From Planosporangium thailandense (lineage in GTDB: Bacteria > Actinomycetota > Actinomycetes > Mycobacteriales > Micromonosporaceae): 64,000 nucleotides of DNA. The number at the start of each line of letters is the position of its first letter. Position 1 is the first letter of the stretch. Where the stretch lies: contig NZ_JAATVY010000027.1 of NCBI RefSeq assembly GCF_011947195.1, forward strand, positions 1 through 64,000, read 5' to 3'. The translations under genes were made by a program, and so were the position numbers. This document shows, in pieces, positions 34,736 through 62,036 of the stretch. The notes under the pieces were generated by a model. The model was not told the origin of the DNA and ran no database searches. It saw only the letters and a program-made list of their open reading frames with translations.

Positions 34736-35848
34736 ATGAAGACTGCACTGCGCAACGTCCGCGTATTCGACGGCAGGCAACTTCTCCAGCCCGGCACGGT
34801 GGTGCTCGACGGCGACCGCATCGGATCCGACGCCGCGGGCGCCGAGGTGGTCGTCGACGGCGCGGGGGCGGTGCTCCTGCCCGGGCTGACCGACGCCCAC
34901 CTGCACCTCGACGGGCGGCCCGCACTCGAACGGCTGGTGCGCTTCGGGGTGACCACCGCCCTGGACATGGCCAACGCTCCACCCGAGTTCGTCGACTCGA
35001 TGCGCGGGATCCGGGGCCTCACCGACATCCGCAGCGCCGGCACCGCTGCGCTCGCCCCGGGCAGCATCCACTCGCACATCCCGGAGATCGGCGAGCGTGG
35101 CCTGATCCGTACCGCCGGCGAAGCGGAGCGGTTCGTGACCGAACGGTTCGCCGAGGGCTCCAACTTCCTGAAGGTCCTGATCGACCTGCCCGGGCCCAGC
35201 CTCGACCGGGCCACCGTCTACGCGCTCGTCGCCACCGCACACAGGCTCGGGCGGCTCGTCGTGGCGCACGCCCTCTCGTACGAGGCCGCGGAGGTGGCGC
35301 AGGTGGCCGGGGTCGACGCGCTCACCCACACGCCGCTGGACCGGCCACTGGACCGCAATGCGGCGGACCGGATGGCGGCCGCGGGCCGGATGCTGATCCC
35401 CACGCTGGTCATGATGGAGGCGTTGACGGCGCCGTCGACATCCCCGGAGATGTTGGCGGAGTGGGCGATGCCCGACGCAAGCTACGACAGCGCGCGGGCG
35501 AGCGTCGCCGCCGCGTACCGCGCCGGCGTACCGGTCCTGGCCGGCACCGACACCAACACGGACGCCGAAGCGCCGGGGAACTTCACGTTCGGCGACAGCC
35601 TGCACCACGAGCTGGAACTGCTCGTCGACGCCGGCCTCAGCACCATCGACGCGCTGCGCGCCGCGACGGTACTGCCCGCCGAACACTTCGGCCTCACCGA
35701 CCGCGGCGTCATCGCGCCGGGCCGGCGGGCCGACCTGGTGCTCGTCGACGGCGACCCGCTGCACGACATCCGCGCCGTGCGGTCGGTCAGCCGCGTCTGG
35801 TGCGGCGGCATCGAGCACACCCCGGCCCGCCTGGCCAAGCAGTCGTAG
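34736..35848 (+). CDS. Metal-dependent amidohydrolase
   Basis: A 370-residue amidohydrolase-superfamily enzyme (imidazolonepropionase/prolidase-like group). The N-terminal beta domain leads to the metal-binding DAHLHLDG (about residues 56-63). Lys in NFLKVLIDLPG, His in VVAHALS and DALTHTP, and Asp in AGTDTN complete the expected ligands. The C-terminus has PGRRADLVLVDGDPL. It should hydrolyse a cyclic or open amide; the substrate is unknown. The ATG at 34736 is tentative because the ribosome site is weak and a GTG at 34709 is possible. Confidence 0.82.
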   Translation: MKTALRNVRVFDGRQLLQPGTVVLDGDRIGSDAAGAEVVVDGAGAVLLPGLTDAHLHLDGRPALERLVRFGVTTALDMANAPPEFVDSMRGIRGLTDIRSAGTAALAPGSIHSHIPEIGERGLIRTAGEAERFVTERFAEGSNFLKVLIDLPGPSLDRATVYALVATAHRLGRLVVAHALSYEAAEVAQVAGVDALTHTPLDRPLDRNAADRMAAAGRMLIPTLVMMEALTAPSTSPEMLAEWAMPDASYDSARASVAAAYRAGVPVLAGTDTNTDAEAPGNFTFGDSLHHELELLVDAGLSTIDALRAATVLPAEHFGLTDRGVIAPGRRADLVLVDGDPLHDIRAVRSVSRVWCGGIEHTPARLAKQS

Positions 35849-47842: not shown

Positions 47843-48694
47843 TCAGCGGTGCCGGGTCGGGCCGCTGGCGCCGGGCCGACGGTGGACCGACGGAATGGTG
47901 GGCCGATTCGCCTTCTCCTCCGGACTGAGCGAGTCGAACCAGGTGGCAACCTCCTCGATTTCCCGGAGGTGTTCATCCATGACCGATTTGATGCGGCTCT
48001 CGCTCCGGCTGCGAAGAGCCGCGAGCGTCGCCTCATGAATGTGGACCGTGTGCTCGAAGTCCGTGTAGCTCTCGTCGAATCCATCAAGCACGATTGCCAA
48101 CTGCTCCATCAGCTCGTGCGAATAGACGGCGAGAGGTTCGTTGTCCGCTGCCTTCGCGATGGTGTAGTGGAACAGGTCATTGGCGTGTACCCAGTCCGCG
48201 GGTCGCCCGCGTGCCGGCTCGAGCAGGTCGATCGCTCGCTGCAGCTCGGCGAAGTGCTCCTCGGTGGCGTGGAGACCTGCCAATCGTGCCAGCTCCATCT
48301 CGATAACGCGGCGAGCCTCAGCGAGTTGGCGCAAGGGTACGTCGAAGCGGCGTCCAGAGAGTCGCATCAGATCGGTTGGGATGGCGGAAGATATGACCTT
48401 GGTGCCACCGGTGGCACCTCTTCTCGTCTCCACGACCCCGTATGTAGCTAGAACGCCCAGCGCCTCTCCGACGGTCGGTCGGCTCACGTTCATCTGTCGT
48501 GCGAGCGCCTCGACCGTGGGCAGACGGCTACCCACCGGATAGATCCCGGCACGGATCACGTAGGTCAGCTGATCGACGACTTCCTGGAAGGCGCGCGAAG
48601 CGTTGATTGGGTAGAACGCAGCGAACGCCTGGTCCTCAACGCTCCGGACCACATCGTCGTGTGGAGGTTGCTTCTTGGGCCGGTCGACTGCCAT
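47843..48694 (-). CDS. GntR-family regulator, FadR/FCD type, of the peptide-uptake island
   Basis: A 283-residue regulator. A winged helix is at about residues 35-105 (GIYPVGSRLPTVEALARQMN, then VSRPTVGEALGVL). An FCD-type helical domain runs to about 255, with conserved acidic and His residues (FHYTIAKAADNE; IHEATLAALRSRS). A basic N-terminal tail precedes the HTH. It is the third gene after pepA and the S66 peptidase, 10 bases downstream of the latter. It is therefore the likely controller of the divergent transport operon; the AT-rich region 51150-51190 is a candidate operator. Confidence 0.88.
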   Translation of the reverse strand: MAVDRPKKQPPHDDVVRSVEDQAFAAFYPINASRAFQEVVDQLTYVIRAGIYPVGSRLPTVEALARQMNVSRPTVGEALGVLATYGVVETRRGATGGTKVISSAIPTDLMRLSGRRFDVPLRQLAEARRVIEMELARLAGLHATEEHFAELQRAIDLLEPARGRPADWVHANDLFHYTIAKAADNEPLAVYSHELMEQLAIVLDGFDESYTDFEHTVHIHEATLAALRSRSESRIKSVMDEHLREIEEVATWFDSLSPEEKANRPTIPSVHRRPGASGPTRHR

Positions 48695-48704
48695 TTCCCG
48701 CTTC

Positions 48705-49676
48705 CTAATCTGCCTGTGCTGACCGCGCAGTCAGGCCTGACTCCTCGATGATAAGCTCCTGTTTGCCGGCATCGAGCGTGGCCCGCACCCCCAGTGGAAT
48801 GGTGGCAAGGCTGGTGCCGTGGCCCAACGGCAACCCGTAGAGGACGGGCACTCCCAACGGCGACAGATAGTGCTCAAGCACGTCCTCGAGGGACTTGGTG
48901 CTCGGATACGATGCGCGGTCGCGTGCCCAGTCGCAGCCCGCCATCTGTCCGACCACCACACCGGCAACCTGCTGAAGCTTTCCCGCGTGAGTCAGCTGCG
49001 CGAGCATGCCGTCGATCTGCCAGGTAGGGACGTTGACCTCCTCGAAGAAGAGCAGCGCGCCGTCGGTCGCGACCTCCCAGGGGGTGGCGAGCGTCTCTCG
49101 CAACTCCCACAGGTCACCGCCCACCAACGGGGCGGTCACCCGGCCTCCGTGCAAGGTCAAGAGGAACGGATCGTCGGGGTCGGCGGGAACCGGGCCCTGC
49201 CCACCGTCGCGCAGAACGCTGATGAGTCGATCCTGCGTGAACGAGGTCGCCTCGGGGGCGCTCATGGCGATGAGGCCGGGCCCGTAGAAGGTTACAAGGC
49301 CCGTGCGCTGTCGGATGGCCACGTGCAACGACGTGATGTCCGAGTAGCCGATGAGCGGCTTGGGGTTGGCCGCGATGACGTCGTAGTCCAGAAAGGGCAG
49401 TAGATGGTTGGACCCGTAGCCACCCTGAAGGCACTGGATAGCGTCGATCTGCGGGTCTTCGAAGCATGCCATGAGATCGCGCGCTCGGCCCTCGGCGGAT
49501 CCCGCGAGATACCCGTCACGAGCGGCGATTCCTTCGGCGACCTTGACTCGGTAGCCACGGGATTCCCAGAACTTGATGCCACGCAGTAGCTGAGACCGGT
49601 TGTGATACGGGGTGGCAGGGGCTGGCACGCCAACCACACCGCCCTGGGGGAGTGCCGGAGCGAGCAACGTCCTCAC
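48705..49676 (-). CDS. S66 peptidase, LD-carboxypeptidase/MccF-like
   Basis: A 323-residue S66-family serine peptidase. It begins with the GGVVGVPAPATP strand, then CLQGGYGSNHLLPFLDYD, the nucleophile Ser in LIGYSDITSLH, and later PLVGGDLWELRETLATPWEV and VVVGQMAGCDWARD with the expected acidic partner. Family members are cytoplasmic: LdcA trims D-Ala from murein tetrapeptides, and MccF cleaves the amide of microcin C. The GTG at 49676 overlaps the pepA stop as GTGA. In this operon it probably acts on an imported peptide. Confidence 0.88.
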   Translation of the reverse strand: MRTLLAPALPQGGVVGVPAPATPYHNRSQLLRGIKFWESRGYRVKVAEGIAARDGYLAGSAEGRARDLMACFEDPQIDAIQCLQGGYGSNHLLPFLDYDVIAANPKPLIGYSDITSLHVAIRQRTGLVTFYGPGLIAMSAPEATSFTQDRLISVLRDGGQGPVPADPDDPFLLTLHGGRVTAPLVGGDLWELRETLATPWEVATDGALLFFEEVNVPTWQIDGMLAQLTHAGKLQQVAGVVVGQMAGCDWARDRASYPSTKSLEDVLEHYLSPLGVPVLYGLPLGHGTSLATIPLGVRATLDAGKQELIIEESGLTARSAQAD

Positions 49677-51112
49677 TGAACACCCCCGCGCTCGCCGCGC
49701 CCGACGAGGAAGTTCATCAGTGCCCGTGTCGGCGATCCCGTGGCCCCGGCGGGCCAACGGTCCGTGCTGGCGTGAAAGGCCGTGCCCACGACGTCAAGGT
49801 GGGCCCAGGGGAAGGCGTCCACGAAGGAACTGAGATATGCGGCGGCAGCCAGCGTGTCCACCCGCGCGTGATCGAAACTGTAGTTCTTGAGGTCGGCAAC
49901 GGTGGAGTCCAGGTGGCGTGTCATGGCTGCCAGGAGAGGCAGGCGCCATCCCGGCTCTCCCGCTCGATCACCGGCCTCGAGTAGTTCGTTCGCCAGCCCG
50001 TCTTCGTTGGAGAAGAGCATCCACAGGTCTCCGCCGAGCAGGGCTGAGGTCAGGGTCGCGACGTCGACCACCGCGGCCGGGTTGAACGTGGCCGCGTAGG
50101 CGAGGGCGTCCGCGAGGAGTAGGCGTCCTTCGGCATCAGTGTTGGTCACCTCGGTCGTGCGCCCGTTGGGGTGGCGCACCACATCGCCTGGGCGGATGGC
50201 TGTGCCGCTGGGCATGTTCTCGACCAGGAGCAGGAGGGCCGTCACGTTCACCGGTAGCCCGCGACGGGCCGCCCCCACGACGGCCGCGGCGACCGCGGCC
50301 GCGCCGCCCATATCGGCTTTCATCCACGACTGGGTCCGGTCGTTCTTGATCGACAGCCCGCCGGCGTCGAACGTGACCCCCTTGCCGATGAGGACGATCG
50401 GCGATCCCTCGCCGGCCCGCAGGGTGAGTTCGACGAGCCTGGGCTCGTTGGCGCTGCCTCGGCCCACCCCCAAGGTTCCTCCGAAGCCGTGTTCCGCGAG
50501 CGTTTCGGGTGACCACACGCGGGTCTGAACGCCGACCGCCGCGGCCGCCTCCACGATCGTCGACGCCAGGACCGTGGGAGTCTTCTCGCCGGGCGGCGTA
50601 TCGACCAGCCGGCGGGCCCAGTTGGTCATCTCGGCCAGCGCCGCCGCCCTCTCGACCTCGGCGCGCGTGTCCGCCAACGACTGTTCGCTCAGCGCGGGGG
50701 CCACGAGCACCGCGTGCGTCGGCGCGTCGGGCGTACCCGGGCCGGCCGTGTTGAAGCGGTAGGCGCCCAGCAGGATGCCCTCGGCAGCGGCTGGGAGGTG
50801 CGCACCAACGATGACCGCGACCTTGCCGCGCAGGCGGCCCTTCGCCGCGGCCGAGAAGAGGGCCTCGCGGACTGCTCCAGGTCCGGACTCATCGGGATAC
50901 ACCAGAAGCACGTCAACGGCTGACTGCGTCGAGGCCAGGCGCAGCAGGTCGGTGGTCTGATCTGCCCTGGGGTGGGAGAGCTCATGGGCGGCCAGGGCCT
51001 GAATCTCGGCTGGCAAGGCGCTCGCCAGGTGCTCTACGGGCACCGACTTGTCGATCACGACCGCGACCAGATCTGTCTGCGGAGGCAGCTGACGCTGCAC
51101 TACTACCTGCAC
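49673..51112 (-). CDS. pepA: Leucyl aminopeptidase, M17 family
   Basis: A 479-residue M17 aminopeptidase with two-metal active-site motifs GKGVTFDAGGLSIK (about residues 248-261) and NTDAEGRLLLADAL (about 331-344). An N-terminal macro-like domain precedes them. It removes N-terminal residues from peptides in the cytoplasm as a hexamer in known members. The GTG at 51112 follows GGGAG. It heads a three-gene leftward operon (pepA, S66 peptidase, gntR) that diverges from the oligopeptide transporter. Confidence 0.93.
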   Translation of the reverse strand: MQVVVQRQLPPQTDLVAVVIDKSVPVEHLASALPAEIQALAAHELSHPRADQTTDLLRLASTQSAVDVLLVYPDESGPGAVREALFSAAAKGRLRGKVAVIVGAHLPAAAEGILLGAYRFNTAGPGTPDAPTHAVLVAPALSEQSLADTRAEVERAAALAEMTNWARRLVDTPPGEKTPTVLASTIVEAAAAVGVQTRVWSPETLAEHGFGGTLGVGRGSANEPRLVELTLRAGEGSPIVLIGKGVTFDAGGLSIKNDRTQSWMKADMGGAAAVAAAVVGAARRGLPVNVTALLLLVENMPSGTAIRPGDVVRHPNGRTTEVTNTDAEGRLLLADALAYAATFNPAAVVDVATLTSALLGGDLWMLFSNEDGLANELLEAGDRAGEPGWRLPLLAAMTRHLDSTVADLKNYSFDHARVDTLAAAAYLSSFVDAFPWAHLDVVGTAFHASTDRWPAGATGSPTRALMNFLVGRGERGGVQ

Positions 51113-51149
51113 GTTTGCTCCCGAGTGAGTTGTCGCGCGCCGGGCCGGC

Positions 51150-51190
51150 TAACTTCAATAATCCAAACATAAAAGCTATTGACTTTTCAA
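51150..51190. promoter_or_regulatory. AT-rich divergent promoter/operator of the peptide island
   Basis: A short AT-rich block in otherwise GC-rich DNA contains the inverted repeat TCAATA (51155-51160) and TATTGA (51177-51182) plus a rightward TTGACT (51179-51184). It is the probable site where the GntR regulator controls both operons. Confidence 0.45.
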
Positions 51191-51267
51191 GGCCCGGCCG
51201 ACATCGTACGACGTGACGCCGGGCCAGCGGTCCCGACGGAGCCCACCTCGACGCTGAGGAGAATCGC

Positions 51268-52908
51268 ATGAAGCGCAAGCGGTCGACCGCCTGTACCGCC
51301 GCCGCAACGGCTCTACTGCTGTTGAGCGCTTGTAAGGGCGCCGGCGCCAGTGAACGCGCGAGCGACGGGGTGCTGAGGATCGGGGACACAGGGTCGACCA
51401 TCAGCACCCTCAACCCGTTCGTCGCGTCCAACGTCTTCGAACTCGCGATCTTCAGGTACGTGTACCCGCACCTCGTGCAGTACGGCACCGGGTCCGAGAT
51501 CGAGGGCGACTTCGCCAGCTCGTACGACGCGTCCGCCGACGGACTTACCTGGACCTTCCACACACGGCCCGGTGCCAAGTGGAGCGACGGCAAAGATCTG
51601 ACGGCCGAAGACGCGGCGTGGACCTTTCAGCAGATCCTGGCCCACAAGGACGGTCCCACCGCGCGCCTGGCTTCCTACCTCCAGCACGTCACGAAGGTCG
51701 AGGCCGGTGGCAAGGATGAATTGACGGTCACTCTTGACGCCCCCCTCGCGACGGCGCTCTCCCAGATCAGTCAGGTTCCCATCCTTCCCCGTCAGGTGTG
51801 GCAGGAGCCCCTGTCGGGTGACGCGAGTCAGTTGAAGAACTTCACGAACGACGCACCCCTGGTCTCTGGTGGTTCGTTCATCCTCACCGACCAGAAGAAA
51901 GGCGCCTTCGCGCTCTTCAAGGCGAACTCCAACTTCTATGGCCGCAAGCCGAAGCTCAAAGGCTTCGGGCTTCAGTTCTTCGGCAGCGCCGACGCCATGG
52001 TCACCGTGCTGCGACAGGGGCAGATCGACGTTGCCTACGACGTACCGGCGACGGCGGCCAAGACATTGAAGGCCGAGCCCTCATTGGACCTACTCACCAC
52101 CTCCGGCATGGATGAGGACTTTCTGATCTTCAACTCGAGCAGCGGGCAGCGCGCGCACCCAGAACTGCTCGAGCCAAAGGTCCGCGAGGCGTTCCACCTG
52201 GCGATCGACCGCAAGAAGCTCGTCGACGTCGTGACGCTCGGCATGGGCGCCGCGGCAACGTCCGTCATCCCCCCGTCCCTGGCCCCCTGGTACGACCCGG
52301 CGACGGGGGCAGAGGGCCTCGACGTGGCCTCGGCCAACTCGATCCTCGATGGCCTGGGGTTCGCACGAGGCAGTGACGGCATTCGTATCGCGAACGGTCA
52401 CCCGATGGCCTACGAGCTGCTACAGCCGACCGGCCTCACGGGTCACGACCGTGTGGTCGACCTGGTGCGGGCGGATCTCGCCGCGATCGGTGTGAAGGTA
52501 ACTCCCAAGATCGTCGACGGTGACGCGTTCGGCCAGCTGCTCGTGACTCCCAGCGAAAAGGCACCGTCGTACGACCTGGCGATGGACGACTGGGTCTCCA
52601 AGCGGGACCCGGACTTCATGCTCTCGCTCTTTACCTGCGCACAGATCGGCAACCGAAACGAAGGGGCCTACTGCTCCCAGGACTACGAGGCGCTGTACAA
52701 CCAGCAGGCCACCACGTTGGACTCTGGCGCGCGACGTGACGCCGTCGTGAAGGCGCAGCAATTCCTCGACAAGGAAAAGCCGTGGATCCCGCAGTTCGCG
52801 AACCCGAACATCATCGCCGTCAACAAGAAGGTCAAGGGCTTCAACGGCTCTCCCTTCGTCATCGACCACACGTCTCGGCACCAGATCGACGACGTGCGGC
52901 TCGGCTGA
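51268..52908 (+). CDS. Oligopeptide ABC transporter, substrate-binding lipoprotein (family 5)
   Basis: A 546-residue family-5 solute-binding protein (DppA/OppA type). The lipoprotein signal ends in LSAC with Cys22. The body shows STLNPFVASN-like start, LTWTFHTRPGAKWSDGK and DLTAEDAAWTF (typical family-5 motif), and VREAFHLAIDRKKLVDVV. It should capture a peptide outside the membrane. AGGAG precedes the ATG at 51268. It is the first gene of the rightward operon; the permease gene begins 23 bases after it. Confidence 0.93.
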   Translation: MKRKRSTACTAAATALLLLSACKGAGASERASDGVLRIGDTGSTISTLNPFVASNVFELAIFRYVYPHLVQYGTGSEIEGDFASSYDASADGLTWTFHTRPGAKWSDGKDLTAEDAAWTFQQILAHKDGPTARLASYLQHVTKVEAGGKDELTVTLDAPLATALSQISQVPILPRQVWQEPLSGDASQLKNFTNDAPLVSGGSFILTDQKKGAFALFKANSNFYGRKPKLKGFGLQFFGSADAMVTVLRQGQIDVAYDVPATAAKTLKAEPSLDLLTTSGMDEDFLIFNSSSGQRAHPELLEPKVREAFHLAIDRKKLVDVVTLGMGAAATSVIPPSLAPWYDPATGAEGLDVASANSILDGLGFARGSDGIRIANGHPMAYELLQPTGLTGHDRVVDLVRADLAAIGVKVTPKIVDGDAFGQLLVTPSEKAPSYDLAMDDWVSKRDPDFMLSLFTCAQIGNRNEGAYCSQDYEALYNQQATTLDSGARRDAVVKAQQFLDKEKPWIPQFANPNIIAVNKKVKGFNGSPFVIDHTSRHQIDDVRLG

Positions 52909-52931
52909 CCCGTCGGTCCAAAGGAGCCATG

Positions 52932-53897
52932 ATGCCCGCAGCTCTGGCATTTCTGTTGCGCCGTGTGGCGGTCGCCGTAGTCACCGTCTTCGTGGCCGTC
53001 AGTGCCAACTTCTTTCTCTTTCGCGCGGTTCCCGGCGATGCGGCCAGCGTCGTCAAAGTTCCCGGCATGACGGCTGAGCAGCGCCAGCAGATCCGCGCGG
53101 AGTTCGGACTCGACAAGCCGCTGCCCAACCAGTACCTCAGCTACCTGCGGCAACTGACCCACGGGAACCTCGGTATCTCGTTCGAGAACCGCAAGCCGGT
53201 GGCGGCGAACCTGGCCGAGGCCGTCGTGAACACCATGCCAATGGTTGTCGTGGGGACGCTGATCGCATTGGTCATAGGATTCGCGACGGGTCTATTTGGC
53301 GCGTGGCGGCGGGGAACCGCTGTCGACGCGGCTGGTCTCGGCACCGCATTGGCGTTCTATGCGATGCCGGCCCAGTGGCTGGCGCTGATGCTGATCCTTC
53401 TGACCAATGGTCTATTCCCCTCCGGGGGCATGAGCGACGTCTTCCTGGTCGACGCCGACTTCTGGACGATGATGCGCGACCGCATCGCGCACCTCCTGCT
53501 TCCCGCGTTGACCTTCGGCCTCGCCTCGTACGGCCAGTACGCGGTCATCATTCGATCATCGATGCTTGAGACGCTCGGTGAGGACTACGTCCTCACGGCC
53601 CGCGCGAAGGGATTCAGCAACTGGGCAGTCGTGCGTCGGCACGCCTTGCGTAACGCCATGCTGCCGATCACGACGCTCATCGCGCTGTCCCTGGGCACGC
53701 TGATGGCAGGGGCGATCCTGATCGAGACGGTGTTCTCCTGGCCAGGAGTCGGCCTGGCGATCTACGGAGCGGTACGGGCCCGCGACTATCCGATGCTGCA
53801 GGGAGCCTTCCTGCTGCTGACCTGTTCCGTCATCTTGTGCAACCTGCTCGCAGACACGCTCTATCTACGCCTCGACCCAAGGATTCGCACCGCATGA
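52932..53897 (+). CDS. Oligopeptide ABC transporter permease, DppB-like
   Basis: A 321-residue permease with about six membrane helices: a first helix at the N-terminus, a large external loop (about residues 32-95, GLDKPLPNQYLSYL) and the EAA-type loop DYVLTARAKGFSNWAVVRRH. It pairs with the DppC-like protein. AAGGAG precedes two adjacent ATG codons (52929 and 52932); the second has the better spacing. Its stop overlaps the next start as ATGA. Confidence 0.92.
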   Translation: MPAALAFLLRRVAVAVVTVFVAVSANFFLFRAVPGDAASVVKVPGMTAEQRQQIRAEFGLDKPLPNQYLSYLRQLTHGNLGISFENRKPVAANLAEAVVNTMPMVVVGTLIALVIGFATGLFGAWRRGTAVDAAGLGTALAFYAMPAQWLALMLILLTNGLFPSGGMSDVFLVDADFWTMMRDRIAHLLLPALTFGLASYGQYAVIIRSSMLETLGEDYVLTARAKGFSNWAVVRRHALRNAMLPITTLIALSLGTLMAGAILIETVFSWPGVGLAIYGAVRARDYPMLQGAFLLLTCSVILCNLLADTLYLRLDPRIRTA

Positions 53898-54838
53898 GCG
53901 CTACTACAACCCTTGCGTCCGTGGCAGCGCCAACGAGCCAGCCCACCCGGCCACGCCGGCTCCTCGCGAGCGTGCGCCGTCGCCCGGCCGCTGTCGCCGG
54001 AGCGACGATCCTGGCGACCTTTGTGATCCTCGCCCTGGTCGGTCCGTTACTGACGCCCTACGGAGTACACCAGCGGGTGGGCGAGGTGTACGCGCACCCG
54101 TCCGCGGCTCACCCGCTGGGTCTGGACGACGCCGGGGTCGACATGCTCACCCTGCTGATCGCCGGGACCCGCGTGTCGTTGTTCGTCGGCTTCGCCGCAT
54201 CCGTGGTGAGTGTGATCGTCGGTGGAAGCATCGGGGTGCTCGCGGGCTACGCGGGCGGCTGGGTCGACGGCGCACTGATGCGCCTGACGGACTACATGAT
54301 CGTCGTTCCCGCCCTGCCGCTCATGATCGTCGTCGCGACGGTGTGGGGACCCAGCGTCGTGCACATGGTGCTGGTCATCGGACTGTTGATGTGGACGTCC
54401 ACCGCGCGGCTGCTACGCGCCCAGGTGCTGAGCCTCCGGGAGCGCGCGTCCGTCCGACGTGCGAGGGCGATCGGCTGCGGTCACTGGCGAATTGCCTTCC
54501 GGCACATCGTTCCCGAGGTCTATGGACTGCTGGGAGCGACAACGGTGCTAACCGTATCCGTGGCGATCTTCTACGAGGCGGCGCTGTCCTTCCTGGGACT
54601 CGGTGATCCGGGCACCGTCTCCTGGGGTCGGCTCATCGAGATGGCGTTTGAGCGTACGGCGATCAGCAGCGGCGCCTGGTGGGCGATCGTGCCTCCCGGC
54701 GTCTGCGTGGCGCTTGTGGTGCTCGGCAGCAGCCTGCTGGGAAACGCCCTGCAGGACGCCGCCAATCCCAGAGCTGCCATCGCCCACGTATCACCCCGTA
54801 CGTTCCGCGTGCGCGCCGAGCGGGGGGACCGGCGATGA
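53894..54838 (+). CDS. Oligopeptide ABC transporter permease, DppC-like
   Basis: A 314-residue second permease. It has a cytoplasmic N-terminal tail, the DppC-type HPLGLDDAGVDMLTLLI motif after helix one, and the EAA loop ERASVRRARAIGCGHWRIAF. About six helices are predicted. Overlaps of ATGA at both ends tie its translation to the flanking genes. Confidence 0.92.
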   Translation: MSATTTLASVAAPTSQPTRPRRLLASVRRRPAAVAGATILATFVILALVGPLLTPYGVHQRVGEVYAHPSAAHPLGLDDAGVDMLTLLIAGTRVSLFVGFAASVVSVIVGGSIGVLAGYAGGWVDGALMRLTDYMIVVPALPLMIVVATVWGPSVVHMVLVIGLLMWTSTARLLRAQVLSLRERASVRRARAIGCGHWRIAFRHIVPEVYGLLGATTVLTVSVAIFYEAALSFLGLGDPGTVSWGRLIEMAFERTAISSGAWWAIVPPGVCVALVVLGSSLLGNALQDAANPRAAIAHVSPRTFRVRAERGDRR

Positions 54839-55812
54839 CGTCTGCACCCCAACCCCTGGTCGACGCGCGTGACGTCAATGTCTGGTTCGACCTCCCGGAC
54901 GGACGCGAGCTGCACGCCGTGCGCGGTGCGGATGTGAGGGTCAACTCGCGCGAGAAGCTCGGCATCGTTGGCGAATCCGGATGTGGCAAATCGACCCTTT
55001 TGATGGCGCTCATGGGATTGCTCCCCGCGACGGCAAGCGTCTCCGGACGAATCGAGGTGATGGGCGCGGACCTGCTTGCTGGGGGCGAACGGGCCTTCCG
55101 CGCCCACCGATGGAAAGACCTGGCGATCGTGTTCCAAGGCGCCATGAACGCCTTGAATCCGGTGATCCGAGTGCAGCGGCAGATTGTCGAGGCGCTCGAG
55201 TTGCATGAGGTCGCCTCGGGAATGGCAGCCGTGCACCGGGCAAGCGACCTGGTTCGCCTGGTCGGGCTGCCGGAAGGTGTTCTGCGCAAGTTCAACCACG
55301 AACTCTCCGGGGGCATGCGCCAGCGCGTCTCCTTGGCAATGGCCCTGGCGTGCGATCCGCGCGTGCTGCTGGCAGACGAACCCACGACCGCGTTGGACAT
55401 GATGGTGGCAGCGCAGGTGCTTGCCCTGATCGACCGGCTCACCCGCGAGCTGGACCTCGCTTTGGTACTCGTCACCCACGATCTGCCGTTGGTCACGCGC
55501 ACGTGCGACCGCATCCAGGTCATGTACGCCGGGACGGTCGTTGAGTCCGGGACGCCCGCGGACATCTACCACCAGCCCCAACACCCCTACACGCGACTGC
55601 TGTTCGCAGCGACCGCGGACGTGCACTCCGACGGGCCGGATCCGGTGACCATTCTCGGGGCGCCTCCCCGGCTGGACCAGGTCGTTCCAGGCTGCGCGTT
55701 CGAACCTCGCTGTCCGCACAGCCAAGCCCGATGCGCGACTGATGTCCCGCAACCGCAGTCGGCCGGCAAGGGGCGCTCGTGGGCTTGTCACTACCCCGGG
55801 GAGAGCACATGA
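54835..55812 (+). CDS. Oligopeptide ABC transporter ATPase, DppD-like
   Basis: A 325-residue ATPase: Walker A GESGCGKST, signature LSGGMRQRV, Walker B VLLADEPTTALD, switch VTHDL. A C-terminal oligopeptide-transporter extension has four Cys (PGCAFEPRCPHSQARC and WACHY) expected to bind an iron-sulphur cluster or zinc. It is coupled to the DppC- and DppF-like genes by ATGA overlaps. Confidence 0.93.
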   Translation: MTSAPQPLVDARDVNVWFDLPDGRELHAVRGADVRVNSREKLGIVGESGCGKSTLLMALMGLLPATASVSGRIEVMGADLLAGGERAFRAHRWKDLAIVFQGAMNALNPVIRVQRQIVEALELHEVASGMAAVHRASDLVRLVGLPEGVLRKFNHELSGGMRQRVSLAMALACDPRVLLADEPTTALDMMVAAQVLALIDRLTRELDLALVLVTHDLPLVTRTCDRIQVMYAGTVVESGTPADIYHQPQHPYTRLLFAATADVHSDGPDPVTILGAPPRLDQVVPGCAFEPRCPHSQARCATDVPQPQSAGKGRSWACHYPGEST

Positions 55813-56810
55813 CCGACGACCAGCGTGAGCTCCTTCGCATCGAAAACGTCGTCACGGCCTACGGTCGTGGGGCTGGCGTACGTGCGGTCGACGACGTGTC
55901 CTTGACCCTGCGGAAGGGTGAGCTTCTCGCCGTCATCGGTGAGTCCGGGAGCGGAAAGTCCACGCTGGCGTTGACCGCCCTGCGCCTCTTGGAGCCCCGG
56001 TCCGGGCGGGTGTTCTTCGGTGGCGAGGACATCACGCACGCGACCCAACGTGCGCTGAAGCCGACGCGACGCCGGATGCAGGTGGTCTTCCAGGACCCCT
56101 ACGAGTCCCTGGATCGCCGCTTCCGGGTCCGGCAGATCATCGAGGAGCCACTGCTCGTACACGGACTCGGCGCCAACCGTGCCGAGCGGTTGGAACGGGT
56201 GCACGCGGCCCTGGAGCGGACCGGGTTGTCGCCGGCGCCGCTATTCGCCAATCGGTTTCCGCACCAGCTCTCGGGGGGCCAACGTCAGCGGGTCGCCATC
56301 GCGGCGAGCCTGGTGCTCGAACCCGAGCTGCTGATCGCGGATGAACCCGTCTCGATGCTCGACGTGTCGGCCCGGGCAGGGGTCTTGTCGCTGCTCGACG
56401 GATTGCGGCGGGACGGTGACATGGCTGTCTTGATGATTACCCACGACCTGGCCGTGGCAGCGCACTACGCCGACCGTATCGCGGTGATGTACCTCGGGCG
56501 GGTGGTCGAAGAGGGCCCGGCGCACAAGGTCGTGCGCTCGCCCGTCCATCCCTATACGCGCGCCCTGCTGTCCGTGGTTCCCCCGAAGGATCCGCTCGCG
56601 CCGTTCCACCCGCAGCTGCTCGAAGGCGAGATACCACCGCTGACCGCTGTGCCGGCGGGTTGCAGATTCGCTTCGCGCTGCCCGGACGTCGCGCCCGTCT
56701 GCGCGACGGTCGACCCGCCGCTGATGGACATCGGCGGGAGGCACTCCGTGGCTTGCACCCGCGCGACACGTCAAGCCGCCACGCCGGCCCACCAAGGAGC
56801 AGCAGAATGA
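55809..56810 (+). CDS. Oligopeptide ABC transporter ATPase, DppF-like
   Basis: A 333-residue second ATPase: Walker A GESGSGKST, signature LSGGQRQRV, Walker B LLIADEPVSMLD and switch ITHDL. The family-specific C-terminal Cys pattern is GCRFASRCPDVAPVC and VACTR. It completes the DppABCDF-type importer. The stop overlaps the start of the M20 amidohydrolase gene, which makes the enzyme part of the same translation unit. Confidence 0.93.
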   Translation: MTDDQRELLRIENVVTAYGRGAGVRAVDDVSLTLRKGELLAVIGESGSGKSTLALTALRLLEPRSGRVFFGGEDITHATQRALKPTRRRMQVVFQDPYESLDRRFRVRQIIEEPLLVHGLGANRAERLERVHAALERTGLSPAPLFANRFPHQLSGGQRQRVAIAASLVLEPELLIADEPVSMLDVSARAGVLSLLDGLRRDGDMAVLMITHDLAVAAHYADRIAVMYLGRVVEEGPAHKVVRSPVHPYTRALLSVVPPKDPLAPFHPQLLEGEIPPLTAVPAGCRFASRCPDVAPVCATVDPPLMDIGGRHSVACTRATRQAATPAHQGAAE

Positions 56811-58138
56811 CAGCCACACCCCGCAGCATGCCGCGTCCGTACGAGGCGTTCCTGCCGACGCTACTCAACGAGGCATCCGAGCAGGCGCGCCGGGCGGAGG
56901 CGGTGGTCTCACCGCACCCGGGCGCACCGCAGGACCTGACCGATCGGATCGAGCGGTACGTGGGCGACCTGGGCGCAGACATCGTGGGCCTGTCGCACCA
57001 GGTCTTCGACCATCCCGAACTGTGTTTCGAAGAGCACGAGGCCGCCGCGGCCGTCGCCCGCCTCGTTCGCTCGCACGGCCTCGCCATCGAGGTCGGATCG
57101 TTCGGCCTGCCGACTTCATTCCGCGCCCGCGTCGGCAACGGCCGGCCGGCGGTGGCCATCCTGGCCGAGTACGACGCGCTGCCTGACATCGGGCACGGCT
57201 GCGGCCACAACGTCATCTGCGCGAGTGCGGTGGGGGCGTTTCTCGCCCTGGCTCGGGTGGCGAGCGAGCTGCCGGGCAGCGTCGAGCTGATCGGCACTCC
57301 CGCAGAGGAGGGCGGATCGGGCAAGGTACTCATAGCGCGGGCCGGCGGATTCGACGGAATCGACGCCGCGATGATGATCCATCCCGGTGTCTATGACGTC
57401 GGTACCTACCCGCCGCAGGGGATGCGCACCGTCAACGTGGTGTACCAGGGCCTGGAGGCGCACGCGGCGGCCATGCCGTTCATGGGGCGTAACGCCTTGG
57501 ACGCCGTGGTGGCCGCGTACTCGGGCATCTCGCAGCTTCGGCAGCACATGCTCCCCAGCGACCGGATCCACGGCGTCATCCTGGAGGGGGGACGCCGGCC
57601 CAACATCGTGCCAGGTAGGACCGCGGCCTCCTTCTACGTCCGTTCCCGTCGTACCGAGACCATGCGCGAACTGTCCAGCCGGGTCCAGCAGATCTTCGAG
57701 GCCGCGGCGCACATGACCGGCACGAGTGTCGACGTGGAATGGGACCCGTACCCGGAGGAACAGCCGGTCCGCACGAACCGCGTCCTGATGGAGCGCTATG
57801 CCGTGAACATGGCGCGGCGCGGACGCGCCGTACTGGGCCAGCAGGCGTTGGAGGTTCCCCTCAACGGGAGCACCGACTTCGGCAACGTCAGCCACCTGGT
57901 ACCCGGCATCCACCCGGTCGTCGCGATGGCGACCCCGGGGGTCGCCTGCCACTCACGCGAGTTCGCCGCTGAGGCACGCGGTCCGAGGGGCGATCGGGCG
58001 GCTCTGGACGGGGCCTTCGCGCTCGCGTCCACGGCGGCGGACTTTCTCCACGATGCCGCCATGCGTGCCGCGGCGATGGCGGAGTTTACAGCGGCGGGCG
58101 AGTGCGTTCCCGTACAGACTTCGGAGGGCAAGGAATGA
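56807..58138 (+). CDS. M20 family amidohydrolase/peptidase (AbgB-like)
   Basis: A 443-residue M20D-type amidohydrolase. It has the metal-binding DIGHGCGHNV (about residues 126-135), catalytic GTPAEEGGSGK, a dimerisation lid with GLEAHAAAMPFMGRNALDAV and the final ligand His in GVACHSREFA. Relatives cleave p-aminobenzoyl-glutamate, N-acyl amino acids or dipeptides. AAGGAG precedes ATG 56807, which overlaps the DppF-like stop. Cytoplasmic processing of the transported compound is the natural reading. The next gene overlaps as ATGA. Confidence 0.9.
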   Translation: MTATPRSMPRPYEAFLPTLLNEASEQARRAEAVVSPHPGAPQDLTDRIERYVGDLGADIVGLSHQVFDHPELCFEEHEAAAAVARLVRSHGLAIEVGSFGLPTSFRARVGNGRPAVAILAEYDALPDIGHGCGHNVICASAVGAFLALARVASELPGSVELIGTPAEEGGSGKVLIARAGGFDGIDAAMMIHPGVYDVGTYPPQGMRTVNVVYQGLEAHAAAMPFMGRNALDAVVAAYSGISQLRQHMLPSDRIHGVILEGGRRPNIVPGRTAASFYVRSRRTETMRELSSRVQQIFEAAAHMTGTSVDVEWDPYPEEQPVRTNRVLMERYAVNMARRGRAVLGQQALEVPLNGSTDFGNVSHLVPGIHPVVAMATPGVACHSREFAAEARGPRGDRAALDGAFALASTAADFLHDAAMRAAAMAEFTAAGECVPVQTSEGKE

Positions 58139-59382
58139 GCGACTATCAACTCAGATGCGTGGAGTGCGCGGCCGTGTATCCGGCCGACTTCACCGGCGAT
58201 GTGTGCACCGAGCACCCGGGTCTCGAGGGCATCCTGTCGGTGGAGTACGACTGGGGGGCCGCCGGGCCCGCTCCGCAGGCGCCGCTGAGCGGCCCGGTGG
58301 ACACCCTGCGCCGCTACGCGGACCTGCTTCCGTTGTCACCTGGGGCACTCGACGAACTGCCCAAGGGCTGGCTCTCTCCCACCCCGCTCATCGACGCTCC
58401 TGCGATGGCAAAGGCCCTTGGCGTCGGATCACTGCGCATCAAGGACGAGGGGCGCAACCCTACCGGATCATTGAAGGACCGTAGCTCGACGCTGGCGGCA
58501 CTGCACGCCATGAGCTCCGGGCAACGAGACCTGGCCTGCGCATCGACGGGCAACGCCGCCTCGAGCCTCGCGGGTATCTGCGCCAACCTCGGGCTGACCG
58601 CGCACATCTTCGTGCCGGATGGCACCCCGACTGCCAAGCTCGACCAGTTGCGTATGTTCGGTGCCGACGTGCTGATCGTGCGTGGCAGCTACGACGACGC
58701 CTACTACCTGTGCCGCGACGCGGCCAAGGAGTTCGGCTGGTATGACCGCAACTGCGCGACAAACCCATACCTTGTCGAGGGCAAGAAGACGTGCGGGCTG
58801 GAGCTGGCCGAGCAGATGGCTGCCGAACCGGCGGACTGGGTGAGTGTCGCGGTCGGCGACGGTTGCACCGTCACCGCAGTACACAAAGGACTCACCGAGA
58901 TGGTCCGGCTGGGAGTGATTCCGAGGTTGCCGCGCATCCTGGGGATCCAGCCGGAGGGCGCCTCGCCCATCGCGCTCGCGTTCCAGGAGGACAGCGACCA
59001 GGTGCGTCCCCAGGTGGTGTCGAGCACGGCCGACAGCATCTCGGTCGGTCGCCCGCGCAATGCACTACGTGCGCTACGGGCGGTGCGCGCCTCGGGCGGA
59101 AGCCTGCAGACGGTTACCGATGAGGAGATGTTGAGCTGGCGCGAACGGTTGGCCGGGGCCTCCGGGATCTTCGCCGAAGCCGGAGCCGCGGCGGGCATCG
59201 CCGGACTGAGCAAGGCGGTTGCCGCGGGTCTCGTTGGGCCGGACGACCGCGTGGTGCACATCGCAACCGGTACGGGGCTGAAGGACGCGGGCCGGATCAA
59301 GGCGTCCCAGACTCAGTTCCGGTACGTGGACCCCACGATGGAGAGCACGCGGCAGGCCCTCGGTCGCCCCTCACCGGTCTGA
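58135..59382 (+). CDS. PLP-dependent threonine-synthase-like enzyme
   Basis: A 415-residue fold-type II PLP enzyme. An N-terminal zinc-ribbon-like segment (RCVECAAVYPADF, with a further CTEHPG) is typical of the threonine synthase branch. The PLP lysine is in RNPTGSLKDRSS (about residue 109-120), the phosphate loop in ASTGNAASSLAGI, and VAVGDGCTVTAVHKGL lies in the C-terminal half. Activity could be threonine synthase, diaminopropionate or threonine/serine elimination; in a peptide-catabolism operon an eliminase giving a 2-oxo acid is plausible. It overlaps the M20 gene. Confidence 0.85.
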   Translation: MSDYQLRCVECAAVYPADFTGDVCTEHPGLEGILSVEYDWGAAGPAPQAPLSGPVDTLRRYADLLPLSPGALDELPKGWLSPTPLIDAPAMAKALGVGSLRIKDEGRNPTGSLKDRSSTLAALHAMSSGQRDLACASTGNAASSLAGICANLGLTAHIFVPDGTPTAKLDQLRMFGADVLIVRGSYDDAYYLCRDAAKEFGWYDRNCATNPYLVEGKKTCGLELAEQMAAEPADWVSVAVGDGCTVTAVHKGLTEMVRLGVIPRLPRILGIQPEGASPIALAFQEDSDQVRPQVVSSTADSISVGRPRNALRALRAVRASGGSLQTVTDEEMLSWRERLAGASGIFAEAGAAAGIAGLSKAVAAGLVGPDDRVVHIATGTGLKDAGRIKASQTQFRYVDPTMESTRQALGRPSPV

Positions 59383-59594
59383 CAACAGCCTCTTCCGATC
59401 TCATCAGCTGAGCCGGCCCATCGGACAGCGGGCACGATGTCCCGTGCCGTTGGGCACCTACCAAGAGACCCACACCCTGGGTCATGCCCTTTCACCGCCG
59501 CGGGGTGCCCTCTCGCCTGCGGCGACTCGACAACAGCGCGCACTCGGCCGAATCGTGGCATCGATACAGCCGTAGTGAGCAGAACTGGTTCAAG

Positions 59595-62036
59595 ATGAAC
59601 ATGATTCCGGACGATATTCTGACCAAGCCGGCGACCGTCGCTTCGTCCTGGGCGACCGCGCGACTCGGGGAGCGTGACCCCGGCTCCACACCGGCGACGC
59701 CTGTGGGGCCGAATGCTGCGGCGCCAGAGCGGGTCGATCTCGAAACACTGGACGCCATCCAGCGACGTGTACTGTGGCTGTCGTCTGCAATCGTCGACGC
59801 TGCCAACCACGGCCGGCCCAACGCGTCGGGCCTCAAGGTCGGCGGACATCAGGCATCCAGTGCGTCCATGGTCAGCATCATGACTTCGCTCTGGTTCGCC
59901 GAGCTGACGGCCGCGGACCGGATCTCGGTGAAACCTCATGCGTCGCCGGTGTTGCATGCCATCAACTATCTCCTCGGTGACCTGGACGGGTCCTACCTGA
60001 CGACGTTGCGGGCCAGGGGTGGCCTTCAGAGCTACCCCAGCCGGACGAAGGACCCCGACACCGTCGACTTCTCCACGGGCAGCGTCGGCATCGGCGCGAC
60101 CGCACCACTGTGGGCGGCCATCGCCCACAGGTACGTACGGTCCCACTTCCCGCAGACCCCGGCGCCGGGCCGCTGGATCAGCCTGCTTGGAGACGCTGAA
60201 CTGGACGAAGGCGCGGTCTGGGAGGCGGTCGCAGACCCGCAGGTATCGCGCCTCGGTGAACTGCTGTGGATTGTCGACCTCAACCGGCAGTCGCTGGACA
60301 GGGTGGTCCCGGATATTCAGATCGCCCGGTTGCAGGGTATGTTCGCCGCAGCCGGCTGGGAAGTGCTCACCTGCAAATGGGGCCGACGGCTGCAGGCCCT
60401 CTTCAACGAGCCTGGTGGCGACGACCTTCGGGTACGTCTCGAGTCAATGAGCAACGAGGAGTATCAACGACTCCTACGCACGCCGGACGACCAGATTCAC
60501 TCTCGACTTCTGGCCGACAATGTCAACAGCACCGCGCTGAAGGGATTGGTTGACGGCCTCGACGGGGCCGGTCTCGCCGCTGCTGTCCGCGATCTCGGTG
60601 GCCATGACCTGCAGCAGCTGCTGAACACCTATCGCGCCGCCTCTGCCGAACGGCCCACCGTGGTCTTCGCCTACACCATCAAGGGATGGGGCCTTCCGAC
60701 CGAAGGGCACCCTAACAATCACTCTGCTCTCTTGTCTCCGAGCCAGATGCTGGAGCTGGCACGTGACCTTGGGGTCGACCCCGCGGACCCATGGGCACCG
60801 CTCCCTGTCGGCTCGGAGGAGGCCGAGCTCTGCGCCCGGACCGCCCGCCACCTTGCCCGTCCGGTCGTTGCGACGACAGCGGTACCGTCGCTGCCGACCG
60901 CGCTGGGGCGTCGTCACAAGGGTACGGTCTCGACGCAGGCTTCCCTGGGGCGTTTCCTGCTGGACCTGCGCCGCGCCGCACCGGAGGTCGCGCGGCGCGT
61001 GGTCACCTTGAGCCCCGATGTGGCCTCCTCAACGAACCTTGGTGGATGGATCAACCAGACCGGTGTGTGGTCCGTCGGCGAGCGCCATGACTGGTTCGCC
61101 GACGACAACGAGCGGTTGCTCAGGTGGGTTGAAGGCACGCAGGGTCAGCACATCGAACTTGGAATCGCCGAGACGAATCTGGTTGGGCTCGTCGCTGAAC
61201 TCGGTGCCACGTGGAGTCGGTCGGGCCAACCGTTGCTTCCTATCGCCACCCTGTACGACCCGTTCGTTTCGCGGGCGCTCGAGCCCTGGTCCTTCGGAAT
61301 CTACGCCGGTGGACAGTCCATTTTGGTCGGTACCCCGGCCGGGGTGACCCTGGCTCCCGAGGGCGGCGCGCACCAGTCGATAACCACCCCGTCCATCGGT
61401 CTGGAACAGCCCGGTTGTACGGCGTGGGAGCCCGCGTTCGCGCAGGACCTCGAATGGTGCATGCTCGCGGCACTGGGCGACATCGGTAAACCCGGTGGCA
61501 CGTCGGCGTACTTCCGGCTGTCGACCCGACCCGTGGACCAGGGCCTGGCGGAGCATCCCGACGACGAGTTGCTCCTCGAGCGGCGGCGGCGCAATGCCGT
61601 CGCCGGCGGGTACCGCATCACCCCGTACGACCCCACCGAGCATGTCACTCTGGTCGGTGTCGGCGCGATCATGCCCGAAGTACTGAGCGCCCGCAGGCGC
61701 CTGGTCGAACTCGGCGTGAATGCCGGCGTGGTGTGTTTGACGAGCCCAGACCTGATTTTCCGCGCCTTCCAACGGCGTACCCGCGGCTCGAAGACCGGAC
61801 CGGACTCGAGCATCCTTGAGACCATCTTTCCCCGGAGCAGACCAACTCCGCTGGTCACCGTTCTGGACGGACACCCCCACACACTGGCTTTCCTGGGCGC
61901 AATTCGTGGGGATGAGATCGTCTGCCTCGGGGTCACGGAGTTCGGCCAGTCCGCGGATCTGGACGATAGCTATGCACTGCACGGAATCGACGTCCGATCG
62001 ATCGTCGAGGCAGCGTTGGACCTGATCAAACGTTGA
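59595..62036 (+). CDS. Homodimeric E1/transketolase-like ThDP enzyme
   Basis: About 813 residues in the AceE/transketolase-like fold. The ThDP motif is GDAELDEGAVWEA ... LWIVDLNRQSLD (about residues 196-234). The pyrimidine domain has HIELGIAETNLVGLVAELGA with the catalytic Glu, and the C-terminal domain has HPHTLAFLGAI. It resembles the 2-oxo-acid dehydrogenase E1 of Gram-negative type, but no lipoyl E2 or E3 gene is in the window. It follows the PLP enzyme by about 210 bases and may have its own promoter. The start is uncertain: ATG 59595, ATG 59601 or ATG 59484 are possible. It may decarboxylate the 2-oxo acid made upstream in the pathway. Confidence 0.8.
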   Translation: MNMIPDDILTKPATVASSWATARLGERDPGSTPATPVGPNAAAPERVDLETLDAIQRRVLWLSSAIVDAANHGRPNASGLKVGGHQASSASMVSIMTSLWFAELTAADRISVKPHASPVLHAINYLLGDLDGSYLTTLRARGGLQSYPSRTKDPDTVDFSTGSVGIGATAPLWAAIAHRYVRSHFPQTPAPGRWISLLGDAELDEGAVWEAVADPQVSRLGELLWIVDLNRQSLDRVVPDIQIARLQGMFAAAGWEVLTCKWGRRLQALFNEPGGDDLRVRLESMSNEEYQRLLRTPDDQIHSRLLADNVNSTALKGLVDGLDGAGLAAAVRDLGGHDLQQLLNTYRAASAERPTVVFAYTIKGWGLPTEGHPNNHSALLSPSQMLELARDLGVDPADPWAPLPVGSEEAELCARTARHLARPVVATTAVPSLPTALGRRHKGTVSTQASLGRFLLDLRRAAPEVARRVVTLSPDVASSTNLGGWINQTGVWSVGERHDWFADDNERLLRWVEGTQGQHIELGIAETNLVGLVAELGATWSRSGQPLLPIATLYDPFVSRALEPWSFGIYAGGQSILVGTPAGVTLAPEGGAHQSITTPSIGLEQPGCTAWEPAFAQDLEWCMLAALGDIGKPGGTSAYFRLSTRPVDQGLAEHPDDELLLERRRRNAVAGGYRITPYDPTEHVTLVGVGAIMPEVLSARRRLVELGVNAGVVCLTSPDLIFRAFQRRTRGSKTGPDSSILETIFPRSRPTPLVTVLDGHPHTLAFLGAIRGDEIVCLGVTEFGQSADLDDSYALHGIDVRSIVEAALDLIKR

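Follow-up and report, generated by a model that had tools for sequence, protein, structure and literature searches.

What does an enzyme resembling threonine synthase do among the genes of a peptide importer and three different hydrolases? The question is raised by a stretch of 64,000 nucleotides, hereafter the window, on contig 35 of the 7.0 Mb genome of Planosporangium thailandense. An earlier note on this DNA had described eleven genes in two divergent operons, and all of them were indeed present, intact, open and assignable to a family. The leftward operon (minus strand) encodes, in this order, an M17 aminopeptidase, an S66 peptidase and a GntR regulator. The rightward operon (plus strand) encodes a solute-binding protein, two permeases, two ATPases, an M20 amidohydrolase, a threonine-synthase-like (ThrC-like) enzyme dependent on pyridoxal phosphate (PLP), and an AceE-like E1 dependent on thiamine diphosphate (ThDP).

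Taken together, our analyses point, with a probability of roughly 0.45 for the reading as a whole, to a catabolic locus that would be controlled by the GntR protein and in which a short peptide or amide would be taken up by the Dpp-type ATP-binding cassette (ABC) importer and trimmed by the M17 enzyme from the amino end, by the S66 enzyme from the carboxyl end and by the M20 dipeptidase. The trimming would release an amino acid of the beta-amino-alanine type, of which 2,3-diaminopropionate (DAP) is the likeliest. The ThrC-like enzyme, translationally overlapped with the M20 enzyme, would eliminate the beta substituent and deaminate the molecule to yield pyruvate and ammonia, and the E1, together with the E2 and E3 of the cell, would turn the 2-oxo acid into an acyl-CoA. 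What the analyses establish directly is which genes are present, the clade and signature of the PLP enzyme, the recurrence of a core and the separate recruitment of the E1; the order of the reactions, the elimination, DAP, pyruvate and control by the GntR protein are deductions.

The ThrC-like clade and the reductive uric-acid pathway

The ThrC-like protein (58135..59382, plus strand), a PLP lyase of the threonine-synthase fold, is proposed to be a DAP ammonia-lyase on the basis of its families, fold, clade, signature and neighbourhood. It passes the threonine synthase model TIGR00260 by only five bits (about 172-173 bits, cut-off 167), and two other genes of the genome outscore it (304 and 242 bits), the best of which, the C37 copy, lies within lysA-hom-thrC-thrB; a housekeeping threonine synthase was therefore ruled out. 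A separate, stronger ThrC was also present in all ten other clade genomes tested. The enzyme shares with threonine synthase the fold, the PLP lysine, the STGN loop and a zinc-ribbon-like start, but it is encoded outside the hom/thrB operon and differs at two signature sites. The arginine of NPxR(I/L)EGQKT, which presumably binds the substrate phosphate, is conserved in the five threonine synthases of solved structure that were aligned (5/5) and is replaced by Leu 213 in the window protein, which also has GDGC where the genome's own ThrC has a GNAG loop. The 242-bit paralog (G000:C42:30748-31749, L184) is also without the NPxR arginine and is near those of genomes G017 and G069.

The relatives came from a scan of 84,980 species, from which the best 80 of 539 confirmed loci were taken, 78 of them outside Dactylosporangium. 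In a quick tree, which carried long-branch and letter make-up warnings, an 87-row clade was split from the other threonine-synthase-like rows (value 96), and within it the window enzyme and five Dactylosporangium-type enzymes formed one group (value 100). None of 81 clade rows has an arginine at the Leu 213 column, and the rows nearly always carry EGKKT, GDGC, and PRN or PRD. The window enzyme keeps 82 of the 95 clade-conserved columns, compared with 57 in the genome's own ThrC, 59 in its second paralog and 53 in a Mesorhizobium paralog; the occurrence of W, Y, R and N at 202-206 in the clade is partly an artefact of the genome scan, which used this stretch as its search pattern. Few of the sampled genomes carry the gene: it was found at E <= 1e-60 in 4 of 101 relatives (the own genome, one match of 58% and two of 35-36%), and a search of 394 genomes of the class at E <= 1e-68, with at most four candidates scored per genome, gave the own genome alone.

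In the reductive uric-acid pathway, as described in PMC12507026, the M20 enzyme YgeY releases DAP and the PLP lyase YgeX splits DAP to pyruvate. Genes that make up this pathway, according to PMC12507026 and PMC12990295, were searched for in the flanks of the clade genes at a threshold of 100 bits, the markers being E. coli YgeW, YgeY, HyuA, YqeA, YgfK, SsnA and XdhD and their haloarchaeal counterparts. At least one kind of marker stood beside the clade gene in 64 of the 78 loci, and at least two kinds in 54, compared with none of 22 comparison loci, which surround E1 genes, M20 genes or other ThrC-like genes, come mostly from actinobacteria and are not matched for taxon. The amidohydrolase markers of the SsnA, GuaD and HyuA class are broad families and carry lesser weight. 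Canonical YgeX was not found in the flanks of the 78 loci, where the best match (69 bits) was at the level of the ThrC-like gene itself. A genome-wide search covered 48 of the 78 genomes and two of Dactylosporangium; of these 50, out of the total of 80, 39 had nothing above 73 bits, including all six haloarchaea tested, and three gave partial scores of 289-512 bits.

As uric-acid genes adjoin the clade, YgeX is mostly missing and a separate, stronger ThrC is present, the clade may well perform the YgeX step. The haloarchaeal loci, in which neither YgeX nor the second PLP enzyme of many other clade loci was matched, offer the clearest example. In the two haloarchaea tested, the SsnA-like proteins scored 256-273 bits, below the model's cut-off of 455. 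On a plasmid of Haloprofundus halobius (L013:8977-11432), the ThrC-like gene shares an overlap with a gene for an M20 enzyme of the ArgE/DapE type, and the other annotated neighbours are unrelated.

Since the window protein is not the housekeeping enzyme, has lost the arginine and belongs to a clade found beside uric-acid genes, we infer that it is an alpha,beta-eliminating lyase, with DAP as the best substrate candidate, at somewhat under even odds. The label "threonine-synthase-like" holds as a resemblance, but the protein belongs to a clade tied by context to the reductive uric-acid pathway. The window itself resembles the YgeY and YgeX steps of E. coli in pairing an M20 hydrolase with a subsequent PLP lyase (PF00291) that would yield a 2-oxo acid, and the clade of its lyase occurs inside such clusters. 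It differs in that the lyase has the threonine-synthase fold and the M20 enzyme is of the HmrA/PM20D2 type, not YgeY. The lyase falls outside the YgeX family (TIGR03528), being 25% identical to E. coli YgeX over 174 aa, and among the YgeX-type NCBIfam models only PRK08206 matched it (51 bits, cut-off 276). A peptide-type importer takes the place of SsnA, HyuA, XdhD, YgfK and YgeW, for none of which a search at E 1e-6 found a counterpart in the window. Uric-acid use by the window strain was considered and is not supported, the best SsnA match in its genome being 58 bits.

Extending this to the whole clade, we suggest, tentatively and at clearly less than even odds, that the GDGC-clade proteins may be DAP ammonia-lyases that replace YgeX in uric-acid clusters of haloarchaea and of many bacterial phyla, with one branch placed in a Micromonosporaceae operon for the uptake of DAP peptides or amides and paired each time with an E1. 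Such a replacement would be hidden in the uric-acid paper, because YgeX is counted there by the broad domain PF00291 (PMC12507026). Our literature searches found no paper tying threonine synthase to DAP breakdown, and a search on DAP catabolism returned nothing on the subject.

The recurring core and the AceE-like E1

A core of lyase, GntR regulator, Dpp-type importer and M20 enzyme recurs in all five Dactylosporangium-type loci, two of which, from Dactylosporangium itself, are among the best 80 loci; the same locus is carried by G054, G497 and G512 (one genus code). Their ThrC-like proteins are about 55-58% identical to that of the window, and in each of the five a GntR protein 53-57% identical to the window's is encoded directly after the ThrC-like gene. 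There follows a gene for an Xaa-Pro-dipeptidase-like amidohydrolase, with a D-aminoacylase-like protein and an M20 enzyme encoded on the other strand (5/5), and each locus encodes a Dpp-type importer some 12-20 kb farther on; in D. sucinum, a second one is found directly upstream. With its haloarchaeal counterpart, the D-aminoacylase-like protein shares 27% identity (E 2.9e-52). Four of the five loci have an AceE-like E1 close to the lyase, the exception being D. fulvum. In G054, a gene for a three-domain ThDP enzyme (PF02775, PF02776, PF00205; L016:9077-10750) precedes the ThrC-like gene by about 3 kb.

The Dactylosporangium ThrC-GntR-Daa-E1-M20-Dpp locus therefore has in common with the window the ThrC-like enzyme, the GntR protein, the importer family, an M20 enzyme and the E1 family. 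It differs in gene order, in an M20 enzyme only about 25% alike, in an E1 of another subfamily that is 3-4 kb off, on the other strand and missing from one of the five loci, and in having D-aminoacylase-like and Xaa-Pro-dipeptidase-like proteins instead of S66 and M17. As neither S66 nor M17 had a match in any of the five loci, they appear to be additions of the window strain; the hydrolases vary across the loci, whereas the lyase, the regulator and the importer type stay constant. Elsewhere in the window (34844-35827), outside the two operons, a stretch shares 33% identity (104 bits) with the Xaa-Pro-dipeptidase-like amidohydrolase of Dactylosporangium. The scheme proposed in the earlier note, in which import of a peptide-like solute and amide cleavage precede a PLP eliminase acting in series with an E1 dependent on ThDP, is supported by the recurrence of the core and of an E1, there of another subfamily. 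The exact gene order was seen in the window's genome only, but the core is not unique to one strain; the note's own refuting test, an order confined to one strain, thus goes half against it. The proposed pathway as a whole is partly supported, and may be sharpened toward DAP.

The AceE-like ThDP-dependent 2-oxo acid dehydrogenase E1 of the window (59595..62036, plus strand; starts at 59484 or 59601 are possible) is a distant relative of AceE. It matches TIGR00759 (4.4e-54), PF00456 and PF17831, its 184 bits against TIGR00759 being below the cut-off of 860, and its nearest solved relative is the pyruvate dehydrogenase E1 1l8a, with which it aligns over the whole length (residues 71-785 with 95-833). 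In a quick tree, it groups with relatives of 60-70% identity from several families of the order, whereas the Dactylosporangium E1s form part of a second subfamily (about 50%); a single clade of the window and Dactylosporangium E1s was rejected in this quick tree (p-AU 4.76e-48). An E1 was thus recruited beside the rare lyase twice, separately. That one enzyme family twice came to lie near so rare a lyase, by different routes, suggests that lyase and E1 work in series.

An E1 of this kind occurs at E <= 1e-150 in 36 of 151 relatives, and the labelled neighbours among these showed no steady partner. The E1 family lies beside an E2 in two Rhodococcus plasmids, is without an E2 neighbour in Mycobacterium and Arthrobacter plasmids, and is near a dihydrolipoamide-dehydrogenase-like gene in G042. 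In Ruegeria pomeroyi, it adjoins methionine gamma-lyase, likewise a PLP enzyme making a 2-oxo acid, but one of another fold type and with another substrate, and with neither importer nor peptidases. We take MdeAB to be a comparable pair of PLP eliminase and AceE-like E1; a literature search for MdeB found no paper. On a plasmid of Mesorhizobium loti NZP2037 (L014:8980-14754), a ThrC paralog is accompanied by an SbnA-like enzyme (193 bits, cut-off 350), a protein annotated as a kinase, an AceE-like E1 and a regulator of the Lrp type; methylmalonyl-CoA mutase and biotin genes lie several kb away.

Importer, hydrolases and control region

The importer is a complete family-5 (Dpp/Opp) ABC set on the plus strand, comprising the solute-binding protein (SBP_bac_5, 51268..52908; PF00496, 3.1e-67), permeases of the DppB type (52929..53897, start 52929 or 52932; BPD_transp_1, PF00528, 5.3e-38) and the DppC type (53894..54838; PF00528, 3.2e-22), and ATPases of the DppD type (54835..55812; PF00005, 9.3e-27; oligo_HPY, 6.2e-15) and the DppF type (55809..56810; PF00005, 1.3e-31; oligo_HPY, 8e-16). 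None of these proteins reached a cut-off in NCBIfam. The M20 amidohydrolase/dipeptidase (56807..58138, plus strand) belongs to the subfamily TIGR01891 (230.8 bits, cut-off 153.75), and its nearest solved relatives are HmrA (3ram, 4.4e-63) and an Xaa-Arg dipeptidase (7yh4, 1.8e-59), a likeness to the HmrA/PM20D2 (M20D) dipeptidases, which are reported to act on Met-X dipeptides and beta-alanyl-lysine. Its homologs elsewhere have unrelated surroundings in the four genome and three plasmid loci examined.

On the minus strand, the M17 leucyl-aminopeptidase family enzyme (49673..51112; PF00883, 2.5e-98) falls short of the cut-offs of all listed NCBIfam models for leucyl aminopeptidases. The S66 serine peptidase of the LD-carboxypeptidase/MccF family (48705..49676, with a GTG start codon at 49676) has both S66 domains (PF02016, 3.8e-39; PF17676, 8.2e-29; scanned with one extra codon) and aligns with MccF (3tlz) at GYSD, FFEE and the histidine of LGHG, which we assume to fill the Ser-Glu-His catalytic roles; it scores 138 bits against PRK11253, below the cut-off of 378. 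S66 relatives of 33-37% identity were found in seven plasmid records. The regulator (47843..48694) is of the FCD type (GntR, 4.8e-14; FCD, 1.5e-18). The gene after E1, on the other strand, is a gamma-aminobutyrate transaminase (NF004714, over the cut-off) and was excluded from the finding.

Four-base overlaps occur at six of the nine junctions: M17/S66 (GTGA), DppB/C, C/D, D/F, F/M20 and M20/ThrC-like. The other three are gaps, of 10 bases from S66 to gntR, 20 bases from the solute-binding protein to DppB, and 101-218 bases from ThrC-like to E1, depending on the start codon chosen for E1 (59484, 59595 or 59601); the previous description of nearly all junctions as overlapping was therefore slightly strong. 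Because of the last gap, E1 may be a unit separate from the rightward operon.

The operons diverge from a control region of 155 bases (51113..51267) with a G + C content of 60%, and its core (51150-51205) has 39%, compared with 69% for the window, which bears out the shared AT-rich control region of the earlier note. Consensus scans of 51050-51300 and 59370-59620 found neither a sigma-70-like promoter nor a terminator, and a search for palindromes in both control regions of the window gave none. The ThrC-like gene of every Dactylosporangium-type locus (5/5) is preceded by an inverted repeat, GAGCAAA-N-GTTTGCTC, with the right arm exact in two loci and carrying one mismatch in three. At L029:9922-9945 and L016:14063-14086, where GAGCAAA(CA or GG)TCTTGACGTTTGCTC stands immediately upstream of the ThrC-like gene, the repeat is likely a GntR operator overlying a promoter. 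The window has in its control region one exact half-site, ACGTTTGCTC (51111..51120, plus strand), identical to the right arm. It is a weak candidate, as two half-site matches were found in the window against 2.7 expected, which is not above chance, and its position alone is suggestive of an operator.

Alternative explanations and implications

Several observations weigh against the reading with DAP. YgeX is over its cut-off in eight of the 50 genomes tested, and 52 of the 78 clade loci contain a second PLP enzyme, which resembles cysteine synthase and is about 490 residues long (for example L037:11264-12730, L058:11230-12633 and L075:6743-8236; those scanned were below every curated family cut-off). 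The three loci whose ThrC-like gene is set in a cluster like that of E. coli (L070, L074 and L102) are close kin, and YgeX is present elsewhere in their genomes. In addition, the nearest chains in a comparison of the predicted fold are threonine synthases, a fold that does not tell function, and the nearest solved relatives of the solute-binding protein bind peptides, nickel or heme (E 3e-32 to 4e-27), a range that singles out no ligand. The same chain of enzymes might also serve another amino acid, such as threonine, 2,3-diaminobutyrate or another beta-substituted one, with E1 converting the resulting 2-oxobutyrate to propionyl-CoA. The long branch of the window enzyme, the context of 2-oxobutyrate next to methionine gamma-lyase in Ruegeria, the methylmalonyl-CoA mutase gene near the Mesorhizobium E1 and ThrC-like genes, and the better fit of a dedicated E1 to an acid other than pyruvate all speak for this; however, the window enzyme retains the signature columns of a clade whose neighbours indicate DAP, and the Mesorhizobium protein, with its 53 of 95 columns, is outside that clade. 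We therefore regard another substrate as rather unlikely.

That two independent loci, a dipeptide importer with peptidases and a stray threonine synthase with E1, touch here by chance is improbable. Such an arrangement would fit the gap ahead of E1, the HmrA-like M20 genes lacking such neighbours elsewhere and the restriction of S66 and M17 to the window strain, but the genes from DppB to the ThrC-like gene are joined by five consecutive four-base overlaps, all five loci share the core and an E1 was recruited twice. The uptake and recycling of murein peptides or MccF-type conjugates, which the earlier note had suggested as inputs, has in its favour that the S66 family includes LD-carboxypeptidases and MccF and that the window protein aligns with both. 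It is nevertheless highly improbable and not supported: none of the five Dactylosporangium-type loci has a match to S66 or M17, S66 reaches E <= 1e-50 in only three of 151 relatives, the own genome counted, and no further murein enzyme was assigned among the eleven proteins. An ordinary, slightly diverged threonine synthase, as the nearest fold and the barely passed TIGR00260 (172 bits against 167) might suggest, is scarcely credible given the lost arginine column, the better ThrC in the hom-thrC-thrB operon and the uric-acid neighbourhood of the clade.

If the reading with DAP is true, a large clade annotated as threonine synthase would be reassigned to a catabolic step, and the YgeX gap would be filled in many uric-acid clusters, such as those of the 39 of 50 genomes without YgeX above 73 bits. 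It would also reveal in actinobacteria a route by which a non-protein diamino acid is consumed in the form of its peptides or amides.

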